In this document: piece by piece, positions 8,744 through 16,591 of the stretch
Layout: each line of letters starts with the position of its first letter
Numbering within the stretch: position 1 is the stretch's first letter
Origin: an uncultured Lentisphaerota bacterium
GTDB lineage: Bacteria; Verrucomicrobiota; Lentisphaeria; Victivallales; UBA1829
NCBI GenBank assembly: GCA_900320095.1
Contig: ONQZ01000023.1
Coordinates: 1-36,438 of the forward strand
Direction of reading: 5' to 3'
Length of the DNA: 36,438 nt
Made by a program: the position numbers and the translations under genes
Notes under the pieces: model-generated
What the model was told of the DNA's origin: nothing
Databases searched by the model: none
Seen by the model: only the letters and a program-made list of their open reading frames with translations

Positions 8744-11700
8744 TTATTCCGGCTTGCGGAAATCCAGCGTACAGCTCCATGCGTACCGGTTCGGGCGGAG
8801 CACGTATTCCGGATGGACGCTGACCGACCAGCCGTCATCGCCGCCGACGCCCATGTGGAAGCCGTCGAGGATCAGCCATGTCTTTTTGCTTTGTTTGAGT
8901 TCCCAGCTGTGGTCCGCGGACATCAGGTCCTTCGGTGAGACATGCAGCGCGGAGAACCGGAACGGCTTGTCGCCGATCTCAAATGCGCCGAGATGCAGGC
9001 CGTTTTCTCCGGTCAGATCAAGTTCGCGCACATCGCCGCGGCTGCCGCATTCGGACGGCACGAGGTAGTTTTCGAGCATGTCGGAAATCCTGTTTTCCCA
9101 ACGGCCGACGAGGGAGGCGACGAAACGGTCGGGGTAGTTCTCGTACGGACCGCGTCCGAAATACTTCGCGGTCTCGAAGCCTTCAACCAGCGGGAACATC
9201 ATGCCGACGCGCGCCACGGAGTGGATGTCTTCGTTGCGGAAGGAGGCATTCTGGCGGAAGTTCAGGAACTGCGCCTTCGCGGGATCGACGATCCAGGTGA
9301 TCTGCGAATTGATCACGCCGCCGACACGGGCGGAGACGGTGACTTCATACTTCCCATCCGTCTTCTTCCAGTTGAATTTGACGTTTTCGCGTTTCGCGTC
9401 GAAGAGCGGCGGCCAGTCCTTCGCGAACGAGCCGTCGGCATCCAACATCCGGTCGTTGCAGGTGGGAGCGCGGTAATAAATCTCCTCGACGGGAGCCGCA
9501 AGAAGTTCCTTGCCTTCGGGCTTCATGGAGACGAGTTCTCCGGTCTTTTTCGACCAGGTCAGGAACCCGATGGCGAGCGTGTCTTCGGTTTCCTTCACGT
9601 CGGACTCCGCGATGGTTATGTCGCCGGATTGCATGGGATGTCTGGAAAAGATCAGCCGGTTGCCGGAGACGACGGGAGAGCGAAGTTCGAACTGCTGACG
9701 GGTGATCTCGTGTTTCGGACCGTCGCAGTAGACGTTCAGGTAGTACACGCCGGTTGGTTCGGGTGTCACGACCGGCACGTCGACGACCGTGGATTCGAAG
9801 CATTCGATCACGGGAACATCCAGTACGCCGGACTTTATCACGTCGCCGTTGCAAGTCTCCTCCCAGCGGAATTTCAGTCCGGCGGTGGAGGCATTGTTGC
9901 GTTCATTGATGATCGTGAGCTTGTTCGGGACGAACTGATTGATGGGACGCGGGGTGTCGGACGCCCCGAGGTCCATATCAAGCTTGAAGCGGATCGGCGA
10001 CTGGCAGACGCGGACTTCCTGCGCGCCAGGATGCGGCTTCACGGAGGCGTCTACGATGCCGTTCAGGACCTGCGTGCGGTGCTGCCCCATGAACGTATAA
10101 TCATAGTTCTCGCCGAAGTCGTTGCCGTACCCATAGTTGACCTCGCCCGTCTTTGCGATCACGTTCAGGAGCGCCTTGTCCGCCCAGTCCCAGACGAATC
10201 CGCCGTGGAATCCCTTGTTCTCATGCACGAGGTCCCAGTATTTGAAAAAGTCGCCCGTGGCGTTTCCTTTCGCATAGGCGTATTCGCACATGATGTACGG
10301 CCGTTTCTCGTTCGGATTGTTCATCACGCGCCGGATCTGCTCGACGCGCGGATACATGGGGCAGAAAATATCGCTGACGTCCGGGCCGGGGTTGCCGCTC
10401 TCGTACTGCACGGGACGGGTCGGGTCGGCGAACCGGATCCATGCAGTCATGGCGGCGTGGCTCGCGCCGATGCCGGATTCGTTGCCGAGCGACCAGAACC
10501 CGATGCACGGGTGGTTGCGGTCGCGGAGCACCATGCGCTGGGCGCGTTCGATGAGAACCGGGGTCCAGGCGGGATCGCGCGTGAGTTGAGCGCCCATGCC
10601 GTGCGTCTCGATGTTGGTCTCGTCGACGACCATCAGACCGTATTCGTCGCACAGCTCGTACCAGCGGTCGCTGTTCGGGTAGTGGCATGTGCGGACGGCG
10701 TTGAAGTTGAGCTTTTTCATCGTTTCGATATCGAGCCGCATGTCCTCCTCGGTCACGGCAAACGCGTGTTTCGCGCTGAAATCGTGGCGGTTTACGCCGC
10801 GCACGATGAGACGCTGGCCGTTCAGCAGGACGTCCCTGCCCCGAATCTCGATCTGACGGAATCCGACCGGCACATATTGCACCTCCAGCGTTTTTCCGGC
10901 GTCGTCCACGAGGTGGAGAAACAGCTTATAAAGGTAAGGTGTTTCCGGGGACCACTGTTCGGGAGCGGCGATCTTCATGGATAGTTCGGCCGCGCCGCGT
11001 TCGGTCTGACGTCCGTACATGCTGGTCTGTCCGCAGAACTTCGCCGGTTCGCTCTCCGCGACGAGTTTTCCGTCCGCGTCGACCAGGCGCGCCTTCACGC
11101 GGACGCCGGGATACCAGCTGGACCCGGAGTTCCCGATCTGCTGGGGCGGCAGGGCGCGCGTTTCCAAATAAGCCATGATGTCCAGATTTGCATCGGATTT
11201 GCCGTGGCGCTCGTTCTTCGCCGGGTCGGTGAACGTGGTCTTCACCGACCAGTCGCGCAGGTGAACAGGGGACAGCGCCATCAGGCGGACGCCCCGGTAG
11301 ATGCCGCTCATGTGCCAGACATCCTGACACTCCATGAACGTCCCGGTGGAGAAGCGGTACACCTTCACGGCGAGCGTGTTTTTGCCGGGCTTCAGCAGCT
11401 TCGCGATCGCGAATTCGGACGGAAGACGGCTGTCCTCCGCATATCCCGCGTAATGCCCGTTCACCCAGAAATCGTACGCGCTGTCCACGCCGTCGAACAC
11501 GATCCGCACGTCGCGTTCCAGCCAGTCCGCCGGGACCTCGAACGTGCGCCGGTAGCATCCGGTCGGATTCGCGTCCGGCAGCAGCGGCGGGTTCGCTTCC
11601 TTCTGAAACAAATAAACATCGCGCGTGTAAATGCCGCGGTCCGGGACACGCATGTCGTTCTGCCAGTTCGAGGGGACGTTCATGTCGAACCATTCCGCGT

Positions 11701-12001
11701 CCTCGAAATCCGGCTTGATGACCTCGTCAGGCACCTCGTCCGGCTTGCCGAACAGCTGGAATTTCCAGGTGCCTTTCAGGTCGAGCGTGTACTTCGACGG
11801 TGTTTTCCTGTATGCCGCGGCGGACGCTTCATCGTAGAACGTCCCGTAGATCGGGGCATGGCTGAGTTCGCGGTTGACGCCGGTCGTCCGCATATCCGCG
11901 AAATGGTGAGGCTTTGTAATCAGCTGAGGTTCGTCGGCGGCCGCCCCTGCCATCGCGCCCGCGACGGCAAAAGCGAAAAGCGTGCGGAGAACAAGTTTCA
12001 T
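8744..12001 (-). CDS. Secreted LacZ-type beta-galactosidase (GH2)
   Basis: About 1085 residues. The start is placed at 12001 (MKLVLRTLF...), where AAAGGA lies upstream and a clean signal peptide of ~25 residues (cut near GAAADEP) follows. The codon at 12013 would overlap that ribosome site. Domain order is typical of large GH2 enzymes: sugar-binding jelly roll (WKFQLFG, VPSNWQ, GIY), two Ig-like domains, TIM barrel, and the C-terminal beta-sandwich of LacZ (small chain). The acid/base Glu508 is in WSLGNESG and the nucleophile Glu573 in MCEYAYAKGN; FGRGPYENYPDR is a LacZ C-terminal signature. It would remove beta-galactose in the periplasm or outside the cell. It has its own promoter and is not in an operon. 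Specificity beyond galactosides cannot be read from sequence. Confidence 0.9.
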   Translation of the reverse strand: MKLVLRTLFAFAVAGAMAGAAADEPQLITKPHHFADMRTTGVNRELSHAPIYGTFYDEASAAAYRKTPSKYTLDLKGTWKFQLFGKPDEVPDEVIKPDFEDAEWFDMNVPSNWQNDMRVPDRGIYTRDVYLFQKEANPPLLPDANPTGCYRRTFEVPADWLERDVRIVFDGVDSAYDFWVNGHYAGYAEDSRLPSEFAIAKLLKPGKNTLAVKVYRFSTGTFMECQDVWHMSGIYRGVRLMALSPVHLRDWSVKTTFTDPAKNERHGKSDANLDIMAYLETRALPPQQIGNSGSSWYPGVRVKARLVDADGKLVAESEPAKFCGQTSMYGRQTERGAAELSMKIAAPEQWSPETPYLYKLFLHLVDDAGKTLEVQYVPVGFRQIEIRGRDVLLNGQRLIVRGVNRHDFSAKHAFAVTEEDMRLDIETMKKLNFNAVRTCHYPNSDRWYELCDEYGLMVVDETNIETHGMGAQLTRDPAWTPVLIERAQRMVLRDRNHPCIGFWSLGNESGIGASHAAMTAWIRFADPTRPVQYESGNPGPDVSDIFCPMYPRVEQIRRVMNNPNEKRPYIMCEYAYAKGNATGDFFKYWDLVHENKGFHGGFVWDWADKALLNVIAKTGEVNYGYGNDFGENYDYTFMGQHRTQVLNGIVDASVKPHPGAQEVRVCQSPIRFKLDMDLGASDTPRPINQFVPNKLTIINERNNASTAGLKFRWEETCNGDVIKSGVLDVPVIECFESTVVDVPVVTPEPTGVYYLNVYCDGPKHEITRQQFELRSPVVSGNRLIFSRHPMQSGDITIAESDVKETEDTLAIGFLTWSKKTGELVSMKPEGKELLAAPVEEIYYRAPTCNDRMLDADGSFAKDWPPLFDAKRENVKFNWKKTDGKYEVTVSARVGGVINSQITWIVDPAKAQFLNFRQNASFRNEDIHSVARVGMMFPLVEGFETAKYFGRGPYENYPDRFVASLVGRWENRISDMLENYLVPSECGSRGDVRELDLTGENGLHLGAFEIGDKPFRFSALHVSPKDLMSADHSWELKQSKKTWLILDGFHMGVGGDDGWSVSVHPEYVLRPNRYAWSCTLDFRKPE

Positions 12002-12054
12002 GGAACAATCCATTCCTTTGCTGTTTTTTGTAGATTATAATCTGAACATTCGAT

Positions 12055-12207: not shown

Positions 12208-15021
12208 TCAGTTGAAGAGTCTGGAAAGTTTGTCGATGGTGACGGGTTTCAGCAGGATCCCCGTGAACCCGTGCTCCACGAATTGCTTCTGTTCCTCGAT
12301 GTCGGCGGTGACGGCATAGACCGGAAGCTCGGCGAACCGTTCGTCCGCGCGGATCTTCGTGACCAAGTCCTTGCCGTCCATCTTCGGCATCCACATGTCG
12401 GTCAGGATCAGGTCGAACGGGATGTCCGATTTCGAGATCTTTTCCCACGCGTCCTGCCCGTCGACGGCGGTCGCGACGTTGCGCAGTCCGATCCTTGTGA
12501 GGAGCGCTTTCAGGACGGCGAGATTCAGCGGGACATCGTCCGCAATCAGGATGCGGTATTCGCCGATCTCTTTTTGCGTGCCGGAAATCCTGATCCTGGC
12601 GCTCGTGTCGTCGCCGTTGATCCGTTGATTGAGGAGTTCCTGCCCGTCGGCGGCCTTTTTGTCCGCGTCCGGCGAATGCTCGGTAAACTTCACCTCGCGG
12701 AGTTCCAGCGTGAACGTGGAGCCTTTTCCGAGTTCGGAGACGAACGTCAGGTTGCCGCCCATGCGCATGGCAAGCTGTTTGCAGATGGCGAGACCGAGGC
12801 CGGTCCCCTTTGTCTTCGCTTTCGTGCCCACCTGCACATACGGAGTCATGAGTTTTTCCTTTTCCCCGTCCGCGATGCCGCATCCCGTATCCGAGACGGA
12901 CAGCGTGAACACGCCGTTCCCGTTGCTGATGTTGTTCCGGAACGACGCTTTGACGCGGATTTCGCCGTGTTCCGTGAACTTGACGGCGTTGCCGATGAGG
13001 TTGAACAGGATCTGCCGGATGCGCTGCGGGTCGATCTCGAGCAGCGGCAGCGGACCGTATTCCTCCTTCAGCTTGACGTCGCTGTTCATGGTGGTCACGT
13101 CGAAGGAATGGAGCACGGACGAGACGATCTCGCGGACGTCGGTGAGTTCCGGCTTGATGTCCATCTTGCCGGATTCGAGCTTGGAGAGGTCCAGCACGTC
13201 GTTGATGAGCTGGAGCAGCGTGTGCCCGCTGGTGGAGATGGCGGACAGCGCCTTTTCACGTTCCTTCATGTCGTCGATGCCGCCGATCAGGAGCTCGGTG
13301 TAGCCGATGATGGCGTTGAGCGGCGTGCGGATGTCATGCGACACGGAGGAGAAGAAATAGCTCTTCGCCCGTTCGGCTTCGATCTCCTTGTCCAGCGCGG
13401 TGTGCAGTTCGTCGTTGGCGCGCTTGCGTTCCAGTGCGTTCTCCAGCACCTTCACGCTCATCTGGATGAATTCTTTTTCGATCGCGGAAAGCGTCCGTTT
13501 CCCGGTATAGCCGATGACGATGTCGCCGAAGCGTTTGCCGGCCAATGTGACGGGCATGGAATAAGAAGTCGACGGCCTCCATGTTCTGGTCTCGGTTTCA
13601 AAAACGCCGTATGTATGGATGAGGGACTGTGGCGCATTCCGGTCGATCACGAAAGGCTCCATCGGCACGATGTCTTTCGTGCAGTAGCGAAAATCGTCCA
13701 GATCGGCGACCAGGCGTTCGCAGGGGGCCTCGTGGATGCGGTGCGCGTGGCAGTCCGGTTCGACGATCGCCTTCCCCAGTGTTTCGTCGCAGCGGATCAG
13801 GTGGCAGAAATCCGCGCCGAGACGTCTGCGGATGACCTCGATCACTTTCTGCGGATGGGACACCGCGTCGTAGGACTGAAGCGCGAGCAGGGCTTCGCCG
13901 ATCGCCTCGCTGTTGCGGTGGGTCTCCATCGCCTCCGTCACGTCCTGCGACATGCCGAAAAGACAGGTGTTGCCGTCCAGGTCCGTGAGTTTGAGTTTGG
14001 TCGTCAGGAAACTGTACGGTTTTCCATGTGCGTCCAGCGCAGTTTCAAAAAAGGAATTGGGTTCATTGCCGGAAAGCGCCTTGCGGTCCTTCGCCACGAA
14101 ATCAGTTGCCGTGGCATTGTCGAAGAGTTCGGCGTCGGAATACCCGATCGTTTCGGCGACCGAGGGCTTGCACGCAAAACGTGAAAACGCCATATTGCAG
14201 TCCACATAGCGCTCCGTTTTCGCGTCCTTGATGAAGAACATGATCGGAATGTTGTCCAGAACGCTGCGCAGGAATTTGTTCGCACGTCCGCGCAGACGCA
14301 GCAGGAACAGCGTAAAAAGCACGAGAAGCGGGGCGAACGCGGTCAGCGCGATCATGTGATAGGTGTAGTAACGGTGATACCGGTCGAGGACGTCTTTTCG
14401 ATGCGACGAATAGTACAGGATCGCGTTTCCGAGGTTTCTGTCGATCGCGTTGTATATCTGGTCTTTATAGAGGGAGTAGTCTTTCCCGAATACGATCGCG
14501 ATCGCCATTTCGCGGCGCTGTTCCGGCGATGCCGCCAGTTCCGCTTCCGTGAGAGGATAATCGTGCACTTCTTTCGGACAGGACGGATCGGCCAGATCAT
14601 GATCGGAATCGACCAGCCTCATGGCATGGAATTCCAGCTGCATCAGGTTGACCGAGTGCTTCATGCCGTTCACGAGGATCTTTTCGAGCTTTTCTCCGTT
14701 CGGAAGGAGGGCGGCTTCCTCGATGCCGGCCTCGCGATGCTTGTCCACGTATGCTTCTTTGAAATACGCGTCGCGGTATTCCATGTTACCCGAGACGACA
14801 TAATTCCGCACGGCGTTTGTCAGAATGTCCGAACCGGTCTGGAGAAGGTCGCCCGCCTGATTGCATTGCATAAGGTACTCGTCCGTCATCCCCGTCTCGA
14901 TGGTGATGCGGTTCAGGCGAATCGTGTTGAAAACAAGAAAACCGAGCAGGATCAGAGTCAGCAGACTGAAAATCAGGATATATAATTTCGCCCGGTGCGC
15001 AACGGTGATTCTGTGATCCAA
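12208..15021 (-). CDS. Hybrid sensor histidine kinase (TM-PAS-GAF-HisKA-HATPase-REC)
   Basis: 937 residues. The start codon is TTG at 15021, with AAAGGGG six bases ahead. A first membrane helix (about 12-32), a ~190-residue extracytoplasmic segment and a second helix (about 222-243) are followed by a PAS domain (~250-365, NIPIMFFIKDAKTERYVDCN) and a GAF-like domain (~380-535). After a coiled linker comes HisKA with SHDIRTP and phospho-acceptor His562, then HATPase with NLIGNAVKFTEHG, DTGCGIADGE and GTGLGLAICKQLA. The C-terminal receiver (RILIADD...LILTDMWMPKMDG) has phospho-acceptor Asp875 and ends at the stop, so output must pass to a separate phosphotransfer protein or regulator not seen here. 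It follows a solute-binding-domain gene but has its own promoter. Confidence 0.92.
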   Translation of the reverse strand: MDHRITVAHRAKLYILIFSLLTLILLGFLVFNTIRLNRITIETGMTDEYLMQCNQAGDLLQTGSDILTNAVRNYVVSGNMEYRDAYFKEAYVDKHREAGIEEAALLPNGEKLEKILVNGMKHSVNLMQLEFHAMRLVDSDHDLADPSCPKEVHDYPLTEAELAASPEQRREMAIAIVFGKDYSLYKDQIYNAIDRNLGNAILYYSSHRKDVLDRYHRYYTYHMIALTAFAPLLVLFTLFLLRLRGRANKFLRSVLDNIPIMFFIKDAKTERYVDCNMAFSRFACKPSVAETIGYSDAELFDNATATDFVAKDRKALSGNEPNSFFETALDAHGKPYSFLTTKLKLTDLDGNTCLFGMSQDVTEAMETHRNSEAIGEALLALQSYDAVSHPQKVIEVIRRRLGADFCHLIRCDETLGKAIVEPDCHAHRIHEAPCERLVADLDDFRYCTKDIVPMEPFVIDRNAPQSLIHTYGVFETETRTWRPSTSYSMPVTLAGKRFGDIVIGYTGKRTLSAIEKEFIQMSVKVLENALERKRANDELHTALDKEIEAERAKSYFFSSVSHDIRTPLNAIIGYTELLIGGIDDMKEREKALSAISTSGHTLLQLINDVLDLSKLESGKMDIKPELTDVREIVSSVLHSFDVTTMNSDVKLKEEYGPLPLLEIDPQRIRQILFNLIGNAVKFTEHGEIRVKASFRNNISNGNGVFTLSVSDTGCGIADGEKEKLMTPYVQVGTKAKTKGTGLGLAICKQLAMRMGGNLTFVSELGKGSTFTLELREVKFTEHSPDADKKAADGQELLNQRINGDDTSARIRISGTQKEIGEYRILIADDVPLNLAVLKALLTRIGLRNVATAVDGQDAWEKISKSDIPFDLILTDMWMPKMDGKDLVTKIRADERFAELPVYAVTADIEEQKQFVEHGFTGILLKPVTIDKLSRLFN

Positions 15022-15071
15022 AAGAGACCCCTTTCCGATATAATATTAATTAGATTGTTGTTTTTCTCGGG

Positions 15072-15100
15072 AATATAGCACAACTTTTGGGATTTGTCAA
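15072..15100 (-). promoter_or_regulatory. Strong promoter for the hybrid kinase gene
   Basis: On the minus strand a consensus TTGACA (15095-15100) and TATATT (15072-15077) are 17 bp apart, about 45 bases upstream of the TTG start codon. Confidence 0.78.
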
Positions 15101-15158
15101 GGAAAAACAAGTCGCAAAAGCCCAAAAAGACGTTTTTTCATCACTTATTGCACGTTTT

Positions 15159-15194
15159 AAAATAGAAAAGCCCAGTTCCTTGCGGAAACCGGGC
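15159..15194 (-). terminator. Rho-independent terminator after the solute-binding sensor gene
   Basis: On the minus strand GCCCGGTTTCC-GCAA-GGAACTGGGC (15170-15194) forms a stem with one mismatch and a tetraloop, followed by TTTTCTATTTT. It separates the sensor gene from the kinase transcript. Confidence 0.8.
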
Positions 15195-15225
15195 GACATG
15201 TCTGCGATAAAAAAATGGAGGCTTG

Positions 15226-16215
15226 TCAGGCATCCGATTTGCTGTTCTCTGACTCGGTAGCGCGGTTGCGGATCAGAGCGTATCCCGTCACGCAAATCCC
15301 CGCCAGAACAAGCAGGTCAAGAACCACAAGAAGGATAACAAGATGCTTCCGGGAAGAACCGGCATCCGATGGATCGGTTTCAAACGGTTCGATCCATTTC
15401 TGCTGCAGGCGTCCCAGCGTGCCGTCGGCGCGCATTTCAGTCAGAGCATCATCGACCTTCGTGAGAAACTCGGAATTCTTTTCCGCGATCCCCAGGCACA
15501 TTTGCCCGGTTGCGATGTCCATGCGTCCGCGGAAACGTTCCACATCGCGACCGAACGATCGAAGCGCGACTTCTCCGATGGTGGCATGTGCAATGAAGCA
15601 ATCGCGTTCTCCCCGCAGGACGGCATCGACGCAGTCCGTGACGGTTTCATATTCGAAACAGTTGCGCCAGAGATGCTGGCGGATCATCGTCTCCTTCAGG
15701 CCGCAGCCTTCGATGAGCGCGATCCTTTTGTTGTAAAGATCGTTGAACGATTCGCTCTGTTTCAGCTCGAACGCGACGAATTTCTCCTCGAACGTCGGGA
15801 TCGTGAACGCGCAGTCCATGACCGAGGAGTCCTGTTTGTCGCACCCCATGATCAGGTCGGCCTCGCCTTCCTTGATCATGGCGACGGCTTCGACCCAGCT
15901 CGTGAGCTGATACTTCAGATTGTACTCCAGACGGTTGGCAAGTTCGGCGACAAGCTCAATGTCATATCCGCGCGGGACGAAATCGCCGTGAGCGTAGGAG
16001 AAAGGCTTGTAATCGATGTCCCCGACGACGCGGAGTGTCTTGTCGAACGCGTTTTTGGGGAGAATGGTCATCTCCGGCTCGCCCCATTGGTCCTCCTTGG
16101 AATGACGTGTCGGCAGGGCGGTCACCAGGATCGCACACGTGATGATCAGGAGAAGGACGGCCAGCCAGAAGATCAAAGCTCCGGGCTTCCGGATTCGTGA
16201 AATAGAACCGTTCAT
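15226..16215 (-). CDS. Membrane-tethered amino-acid-type solute-binding protein (SBP_bac_3)
   Basis: 329 residues. A basic N-terminus and a hydrophobic helix at about 12-34 are followed by a complete family-3 periplasmic binding domain: LRVVGDIDYKPFSY near the start, GYDIELVAELANRL, EADLIMGC, then a second lobe with GQMCLGIAEKNSEFL and LTEMRADGTLGRLQQKW. A second membrane helix (~288-312) closes the protein, leaving a short cytoplasmic tail. A transporter receptor would normally be a secreted or lipid-anchored protein with an ABC permease and ATPase beside it; none is present. Residues usual for amino-acid contacts cannot be checked by eye. The neighbouring downstream gene is a hybrid histidine kinase, so a sensory role is inferred. 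Confidence 0.82.
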   Translation of the reverse strand: MNGSISRIRKPGALIFWLAVLLLIITCAILVTALPTRHSKEDQWGEPEMTILPKNAFDKTLRVVGDIDYKPFSYAHGDFVPRGYDIELVAELANRLEYNLKYQLTSWVEAVAMIKEGEADLIMGCDKQDSSVMDCAFTIPTFEEKFVAFELKQSESFNDLYNKRIALIEGCGLKETMIRQHLWRNCFEYETVTDCVDAVLRGERDCFIAHATIGEVALRSFGRDVERFRGRMDIATGQMCLGIAEKNSEFLTKVDDALTEMRADGTLGRLQQKWIEPFETDPSDAGSSRKHLVILLVVLDLLVLAGICVTGYALIRNRATESENSKSDA

Positions 16216-16258
16216 TTTGTTCGGAGTGGTAACGTTGTAAATGGATGCGTGTTTGCAT

Positions 16259-16286
16259 AATATATTTCATCCGGCAGAAAAATCAA
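16259..16286 (-). promoter_or_regulatory. Promoter for the solute-binding sensor gene
   Basis: On the minus strand TTGATT (16281-16286) and TATATT (16259-16264) with a 16 bp spacer, about 45 bases ahead of the ATG at 16215. Confidence 0.6.
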
Positions 16287-16450: not shown

Positions 16451-16469
16451 ATAAGATATATTATGTTAT

Positions 16470-16543
16470 GGGCGATTAGCTCAGCTGGTTAGAGCGTCAT
16501 GCTTACACCGTGAATGTCGGCGGTTCGAACCCGTCATCGCCCA
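16470..16543 (+). tRNA. tRNA-Val: tRNA-Val (anticodon TAC)
   Basis: The 74-base cloverleaf folds completely. The acceptor GGGCGAT pairs with ATCGCCC, the D stem is GCTC/GAGC, and the anticodon stem TCATG/CGTGA surrounds loop CTTACAC with anticodon TAC (16504-16506). The T arm is GGCGG-TTCGAAC-CCGTC. The discriminator base is A, and the 3' CCA is not encoded. A T-rich stretch follows, and aspS starts 48 bases later. Confidence 0.95.
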
Positions 16544-16591
16544 TGTTTTTCCGATTTTTTCAACCCATTCAGATACAACGGAGAATCAATC

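Follow-up and report, generated by a model that had tools for sequence, protein, structure and literature searches.

The window analysed here is the whole of contig ONQZ01000023.1 (C50; 36,438 nucleotides), part of the 80-contig draft genome (G000) of an uncultured Lentisphaerota bacterium. On its minus strand lies a gene for a membrane-anchored solute-binding protein (SBP) without a kinase domain, referred to as the SBP gene, which is followed in the order of transcription by the gene of a hybrid histidine kinase of 937 amino acids, HK937. The two proteins are laid out as follows.

15226..16215, minus strand: SBP gene, kinase-less membrane-anchored family-3 solute-binding protein, 329 amino acids (open reading frame and Pfam)
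16123..16179, minus strand: first transmembrane helix (TM1) of the SBP, residues 13-31 (hydropathy)
15388..16035, minus strand: SBP_bac_3 domain of the SBP, residues 61-276 (Pfam)
15286..15342, minus strand: second transmembrane helix (TM2) of the SBP, residues 292-310 (hydropathy and alignment)
12208..15021, minus strand: HK937, hybrid histidine kinase, 937 amino acids, TTG start (open reading frame and Pfam)
14299..14355, minus strand: TM2 of HK937, residues 223-241 (hydropathy)
13168..13368, minus strand: HisKA of HK937, residues 552-618 (Pfam)
12694..13032, minus strand: HATPase_c of HK937, residues 664-776 (Pfam)
12223..12552, minus strand: receiver domain (Response_reg) of HK937, residues 824-933 (Pfam)

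A first-pass annotation, made from the letters of the DNA, had described a family-3 binding domain held between two membrane helices, directly upstream of a hybrid kinase on the same strand and possibly a polypeptide of its own. All of this was borne out. SBP_bac_3 (PF00497) matched the SBP with an E-value of 5.3e-21 and 75.2 bits, compared to a gathering score of 26.4, and the match spanned positions 1-131 of the 132 positions of the profile. The K/R-rich start of the protein suggests that its N-terminus is inside. Binding domain and kinase do not share a polypeptide as they do in BvgS-type kinases, since the reading frame of the SBP stops after TM2 and a short tail. HK937 has a TM1 at about residues 13-31, overlapping a hydropathy peak at 7-25, and a PAS_4 domain at residues 255-364 (Pfam); no SBP match was found in it by Pfam.

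The annotation had also seen no genes of ATP-binding cassette (ABC) transporters nearby, and genome-wide searches agreed. None of the 8 permease matches (BPD_transp_1) and none of the 41 ATPase matches (ABC_tran) of the genome fell on the 36-kb contig. A Pfam scan of 19 further open reading frames, which left some stretches of the window outside, revealed no part of an ABC transporter, and the sensor gene was not seen together with transport genes elsewhere.

From the signals around the genes it is a fair reading that the SBP gene and HK937 form two transcription units, in keeping with the separate promoters and the intervening terminator of the annotation.

16257..16286, minus strand: promoter-like site of the SBP gene, TTGATT / TATATT, kept in all four SBP-bearing genomes
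15170..15194, minus strand: intrinsic terminator between SBP gene and HK937, stem-loop and T-run, identical in three of these four, degraded in G006
15072..15100, minus strand: HK937 promoter, TTGACA-17-TATATT, kept in all eight genomes with HK937

The gap between the genes measures 204 bp and contains both the stem-loop with its T-run and the near-consensus promoter. In G006 the stem as well as the tail of the terminator is degraded. The motif GGAAAGG upstream of the TTG start of HK937 was kept in 8 of 8 genomes. Because terminator-like sites in the region did not exceed expectation (6 versus a mean of 5.4 in shuffled sequence), conservation is the better evidence for the signals; it was read from alignments of the gap in the four SBP-bearing genomes and of the region upstream of HK937 in the four SBP-less ones. 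Promoter-like sites were above expectation (6 versus a shuffled mean of 2.4).

Kinship of the SBP with one-piece kinases

Relatives of the SBP were sought in 148 genomes chosen as relatives, and few matches reached at least 45% identity. Orthologues with 82-92% identity were present in G004, G006 and G009. The closest other relatives (45-53% identity) were kinases, not transport proteins: the SBP matched the N-terminal halves of one-piece kinases of 697-706 amino acids from rumen Victivallales/Lentisphaeria. Long open frames of 700-708 codons were found in G002 (two), G004, G009 and G120, and a pattern-based scan of genome contigs added a sixth one-piece relative with 697 amino acids in RGIG3456. 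The metagenome-assembled genomes concerned are labelled Victivallales or Lentisphaeria, two of them just 'uncultured bacterium', and wherever a source is stated it is sheep or goat rumen. The architecture of the long proteins is TM-SBP-TM-HisKA-HATPase-REC; Pfam confirmed the succession SBP_bac_3-HisKA-HATPase-receiver in all four that were checked of the six. The transmembrane peaks of all six are at the same two places as in the short SBP proteins. A phylum-wide search of 387 genomes yielded four that matched at E <= 1e-25, namely three from the genus of the window and G307, where the match is an SBP-kinase of 1005 amino acids; six of 137 genomes had a match at E <= 1e-20 in an order-wide search.

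Short and long proteins align from residue 1 across TM2 up to the point at which the long proteins enter the kinase linker. By eye, the tail of the short protein of G006 resembles this linker, and the other three genomes share another tail. Because its closest relatives are N-terminal halves of one-piece kinases, the SBP gene looks like the kinase-stripped sensor half of such a kinase. Short and long proteins were placed on opposite sides of one well supported branch of the SBP tree, the root of which was not fixed. We infer that the one-piece form is ancestral because G307 also has a one-piece protein and G006 retains what seems to be a remnant of the linker.

The SBP gene is open in all four genomes that carry it. 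Among these kinase-less genes the ratio of nonsynonymous to synonymous differences per site (pN/pS) of the SBP core was 0.17, and the whole-gene dN/dS was 0.20-0.35 (six pairs). The tail had a pN/pS of 0.80, compared to 0.36 in the six one-piece genes and 0.15 in three of those six; for TM2 the values were 0.78, 0.55 and 0.36, respectively. A constrained core with a nearly free tail is expected of a protein whose binding domain still matters but whose tail has no kinase left to drive.

Amino-acid-binding SBP_bac_3 proteins carry an Arg in lobe 1 and an Asp in lobe 2. According to the profile alignment the Arg column corresponds to S131, which is S, T or A in all 10 members of the SBP family, and the Asp column to H210, which is H in all 10. 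The usual amino-acid ligand residues are absent from the family, which concerns the ligand and not family membership. An ordinary alpha-amino acid is therefore an improbable ligand, unless it is bound in an unusual way. Residues 125 and 171 were Cys/Cys in seven members and jointly Phe/Phe in three; speculatively, they may form a cleft disulfide or a packing pair. The structure model of the SBP was poor with a predicted local distance difference test score (pLDDT) of 55. Third among the profile matches to the SBP was the SBP domain of 3h7m, a solved 'Sensor protein', which we take to be HK29S of Geobacter.

Synteny and the HK937 ectodomain

Orthologues of HK937 were present in 8 of the 13 genomes of the genus (that of the window included) with 88-96% identity to that of the window; seven were in one piece and that of G001 was split over two contig ends. 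Wherever the SBP gene occurred (G000, G004, G006 and G009) it stood directly upstream of HK937, and the genome searches made found the kinase-less gene nowhere else. The synteny that had been proposed as a check of the pair therefore holds for the SBP gene, but not for HK937, which is without an SBP gene in 4 of 8 genomes (G011, G005, G001 and G010). In G011, G005 and G001 the starts of aspS and HK937 are 344-425 bp apart, a tRNA-Val gene included, with no SBP gene between them; in G010 HK937 is in another context. The window has the same tRNA gene:

16469..16544, plus strand: tRNA-Val; the SBP gene stands between it and HK937

A tree built from 25 kinase cores shows how HK937 relates to the one-piece kinases. 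In it the HK937 cores formed a group with two further G006 kinases (96/98), and this group was separate from both clades of one-piece SBP kinases as well as from the clade of HK610, a hybrid kinase of 610 amino acids with a HisKA-HATPase-receiver arrangement. All these clades belong to one supported family, and the tree leaves the order among them open. Thus HK937 seems to be kin to the kinase once attached to the SBP, and not its other half. A kinase core close to that of HK937 was also seen in L066:10440-13346, where an amino-acid permease (AA_permease_2) is fused to HisKA-HATPase-receiver.

The ectodomain of HK937 was modelled as a helical bundle with a pLDDT of 62, using four close sequences. 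Foldseek returned no match to the model at E <= 0.001. With VIA-align, HK9 (3va9, Z 12.7), chemoreceptor bundles and the LytS ectodomain of the XylFII-LytS complex (5xsd) were among the highest. LytS aligned with Z 11.5, 3.1 A and 120 aligned residues, and the ectodomain of TorS from the TorS-TorT complex (3o1h) was at rank 15 with Z 10.0. Both LytS and TorS were solved together with an SBP. Paralogues with an HK937-related ectodomain occur in seven genomes. No kinase-less SBP was found beside the G006 paralogue, the only one whose surroundings were read; thus this type of ectodomain was not built around the SBP.

HK937 of SBP-bearing and SBP-less genomes was compared in 180 windows of 120 bp, and the separation was strongest at residues 131-175. 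When every possible set of four genomes was compared (70 in all), the SBP-bearing set ranked first by gap, if narrowly (0.133 versus 0.125 for the next), and led more clearly by mean difference (0.235 versus 0.167). Five residues, D138, H153, P156, A160 and Q168, were present in all four SBP-bearing HK937 proteins, whereas neither the four orthologues without an SBP nor seven paralogues have them. Between residues 2 and 252 no others are private to the SBP group, and all five lie at 138-168. G009 keeps the SBP-type segment though the DNA encoding its residues 41-80 and 201-240 does not differ from that of SBP-less G001. The segment is probably a pointer to a docking site of the SBP, though no proof of one.

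14518..14631, minus strand: HK937 ectodomain segment, residues 131-168, candidate docking site; allele common to the four SBP-bearing genomes

Low nonsynonymous change at residues 131-168 in the SBP-bearing genomes was considered as a sign of constraint and dropped, because synonymous change is low there too. Across congeners HK937 is a mosaic: genomes that are diverged elsewhere share near-identical blocks (residues 201-240 and others), a pattern suggestive of homologous exchange within the genus.

In 7 of 8 genomes HK937 is followed downstream, on its own strand, by a gene for a glycoside hydrolase of family 2 (GH2), the frame of which is interrupted in G011.

8744..12013, minus strand: GH2 beta-galactosidase, downstream of HK937, candidate target (synteny and Pfam)

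Going by the neighbourhood, the adjacent GH2 gene is possibly a regulated target of HK937. In G001 the gap between the two is only about 45 bp, so GH2 may be co-transcribed there. HK610 lies between HK937 and GH2 in G009, G006 and G005 (L048:4337-6169, L050:4015-5847 and L062:6263-8095; domains confirmed for the G009 copy). In the genome of the window, L067:8113-9057 encodes a shortened kinase in which an HK610-like N-terminus is followed by a C-terminal ATPase/receiver part, apparently the result of an internal deletion.

A possible accessory sensor for HK937 and rival readings

By analogy with known accessory SBPs, the likeliest reading, to which we give about even chances, is that the SBP is a membrane-held accessory sensor that docks on HK937 and is optional across strains. 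A one-piece SBP hybrid kinase would have lost its kinase half, and the sensor half (TM-SBP-TM) would have remained as the SBP gene. The anchored SBP would bind a periplasmic ligand and dock on the helical-bundle ectodomain of HK937, probably around residues 131-168. Docking would change the conformation of the bundle and with it the autophosphorylation of HK937 and the relay to the receiver domain. Since other strains have HK937 but no SBP, the SBP would add to or tune a sensor that already exists. We are more doubtful about a further step, which we put forward tentatively: the stripped sensor may have been captured by a related complete kinase, the five-residue segment may have adapted to it, and SBP and segment may travel together despite recombination, i.e. 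the capture may be in progress within the genus.

Several observations weigh against the accessory sensor, beginning with the four genomes in which HK937 has no SBP beside it. The four-genome group with the next best gap has 9 diagnostic columns compared to 10, G000, G004, G006 and G010 share six private HK937 residues at 203-228, and a third group has five. In the SBP-bearing genomes synonymous change (pS) is 0.104 at residues 131-168 versus 0.316 elsewhere in the ectodomain, so recent common descent may be enough to explain the segment. The SBP-bearing genomes form no clade in the gene trees of HK937 and aspS, many branches of which are weak, and the joined HK937 and aspS tree grouped G009 with SBP-less G011, G005 and G001 at 100; both one gain with later exchange and losses are compatible with this. 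A protein tree of HK937 rooted with a paralogue was set aside because its long branch made it unusable. The SBP tree leaves the order of short and long form unsettled. The tail ratio is derived from few sites, with an uncertain alignment of the G006 tail. The SBP core ratio of the one-piece genes was itself 0.40 (six genes) or 0.41 (three close genes), with synonymous change near saturation in the set of six. Finally, the ectodomain model has a pLDDT of only 62, and Z-scores of 10-12.7 are within reach of helical bundles by their common arrangement.

The SBP might pair or compete with other sensors, for instance its one-piece paralogue or HK610, acting as modulator or as ligand sink, with HK937 no more than a neighbour. 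G004 and G009 carry both the kinase-less and the one-piece form, and HK610 is encoded downstream of HK937 in G009 and G006. On the other hand, the one-piece form was not found in G000 and G006 (drafts, each about 92% complete), HK610 is not at the HK937 locus in the window or in G004, and the kinase-less gene was met solely next to HK937. We regard these possibilities as unlikely.

Distinctly less probable is that the SBP gene is what is left of a one-piece SBP kinase in decay and has lost most of its function. Such decay would fit the missing kinase half and the nearly unconstrained tail and TM2, but not a gene that is open in four of four genomes, keeps its promoter-like site in all of them and has a core as constrained as that reported above.

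SBP_bac_3 proteins commonly serve ABC transporters, and the SBP could be the orphan binding protein of a transporter encoded elsewhere. All 8 BPD_transp_1 matches of the genome lie outside this contig, and one belongs to a permease of the polar amino-acid type. However, this permease already carries three SBP domains in fusion, the contig of the window is free of ABC matches and the closest relatives of the SBP are kinases. Furthermore, the SBP has two membrane helices and not the form of a lipoprotein or of a protein with a signal peptide. We consider a transport role very improbable.

We give next to no credence to SBP and HK937 as halves of one ancestral kinase broken in place, the literal reading of the possible split kinase of the first-pass annotation: the genes are adjacent, on the same strand and in the right order, and both kinase cores are of one family, but HK937 has a complete two-helix-anchored sensor and a PAS domain of its own, occurs without the SBP in half of its genomes and groups with the two G006 kinases, apart from the one-piece clades, so this reading was rejected.

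If the accessory sensor is real, separate SBP/kinase pairs can arise when a one-piece kinase is stripped and its sensor docks on another kinase. The contrast between close relatives with and without the SBP would then provide natural controls for the docking of an SBP on a helical-bundle sensor. Interest in the pair would be modest unless docking is shown.

Known systems and other binding-domain proteins

Accessory SBPs that act on neighbouring kinases are established; the apparent source of the present SBP, the sensor of a one-piece kinase stripped of its kinase, looks unusual. The clostridial D-xylose sensor XylFII-LytS resembles the proposed pair in its separate SBP, which contacts a kinase with a helical-bundle ectodomain, one that aligns with the HK937 model. 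LytS is not known to be a hybrid kinase, nor XylFII to derive from a kinase. According to PMC9769921, XylFII contacts helices H3/H4 of LytS and is 'at most distantly related' to GlnH, an SBP of family 3. The same paper proposes that GlnH of Corynebacterium signals via a helical-bundle membrane protein, GlnX, which is a likeness to the SBP and HK937. Yet GlnH is described there as a lipoprotein and GlnX as having four transmembrane helices and no kinase domain, and the GlnH-GlnX contact itself is presented as undemonstrated (PMC9769921).

In TorT-TorS and CuaD-CuaS an accessory SBP modulates a kinase, as proposed for the SBP and HK937, and the sensor fold of TorS was among those aligned with the HK937 model. 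According to PMC10384115, CuaD binds CuaS, and CuaSR senses cellobiose without CuaD, although less efficiently. CuaD is introduced there as a predicted lipoprotein resembling SBP family 1 (PMC10384115), whereas the SBP of the window belongs to family 3, has two membrane helices and is kin to a one-piece kinase.

Kinases of the BvgS/EvgS and HK29S types use the SBP fold as a sensor, and the one-piece relatives of the SBP are of this general architecture. BvgS and EvgS differ by two tandem SBP domains (PMC8534201), compared to one here, and the SBP of the window lacks a kinase domain altogether. Genes for kinases that are activated by an SBP frequently stand beside the SBP gene (PMC11113362). 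A separate SBP gene beside a kinase gene, as expected of a three-component system, is conserved in 4 of 4 SBP-bearing genomes.

A literature search on kinase loss and gene fission returned no case of this kind by title and the start of the abstract, which is no proof of its being unpublished. Searches on rumen Victivallales or Lentisphaerae with kinase or solute-binding terms gave nothing beyond CO dehydrogenases.

Family-3 binding domains were also met in other settings. Three of them are fused to one ABC permease domain in L059:6706-10017, the only TIGR01726 match of the genome. Frames of about 500 amino acids with two family-3 binding domains recur in the genus (C46, C32 and C18 of G000 and many congeners), and frames of about this length with SBP matches are present in other families of the order as well.

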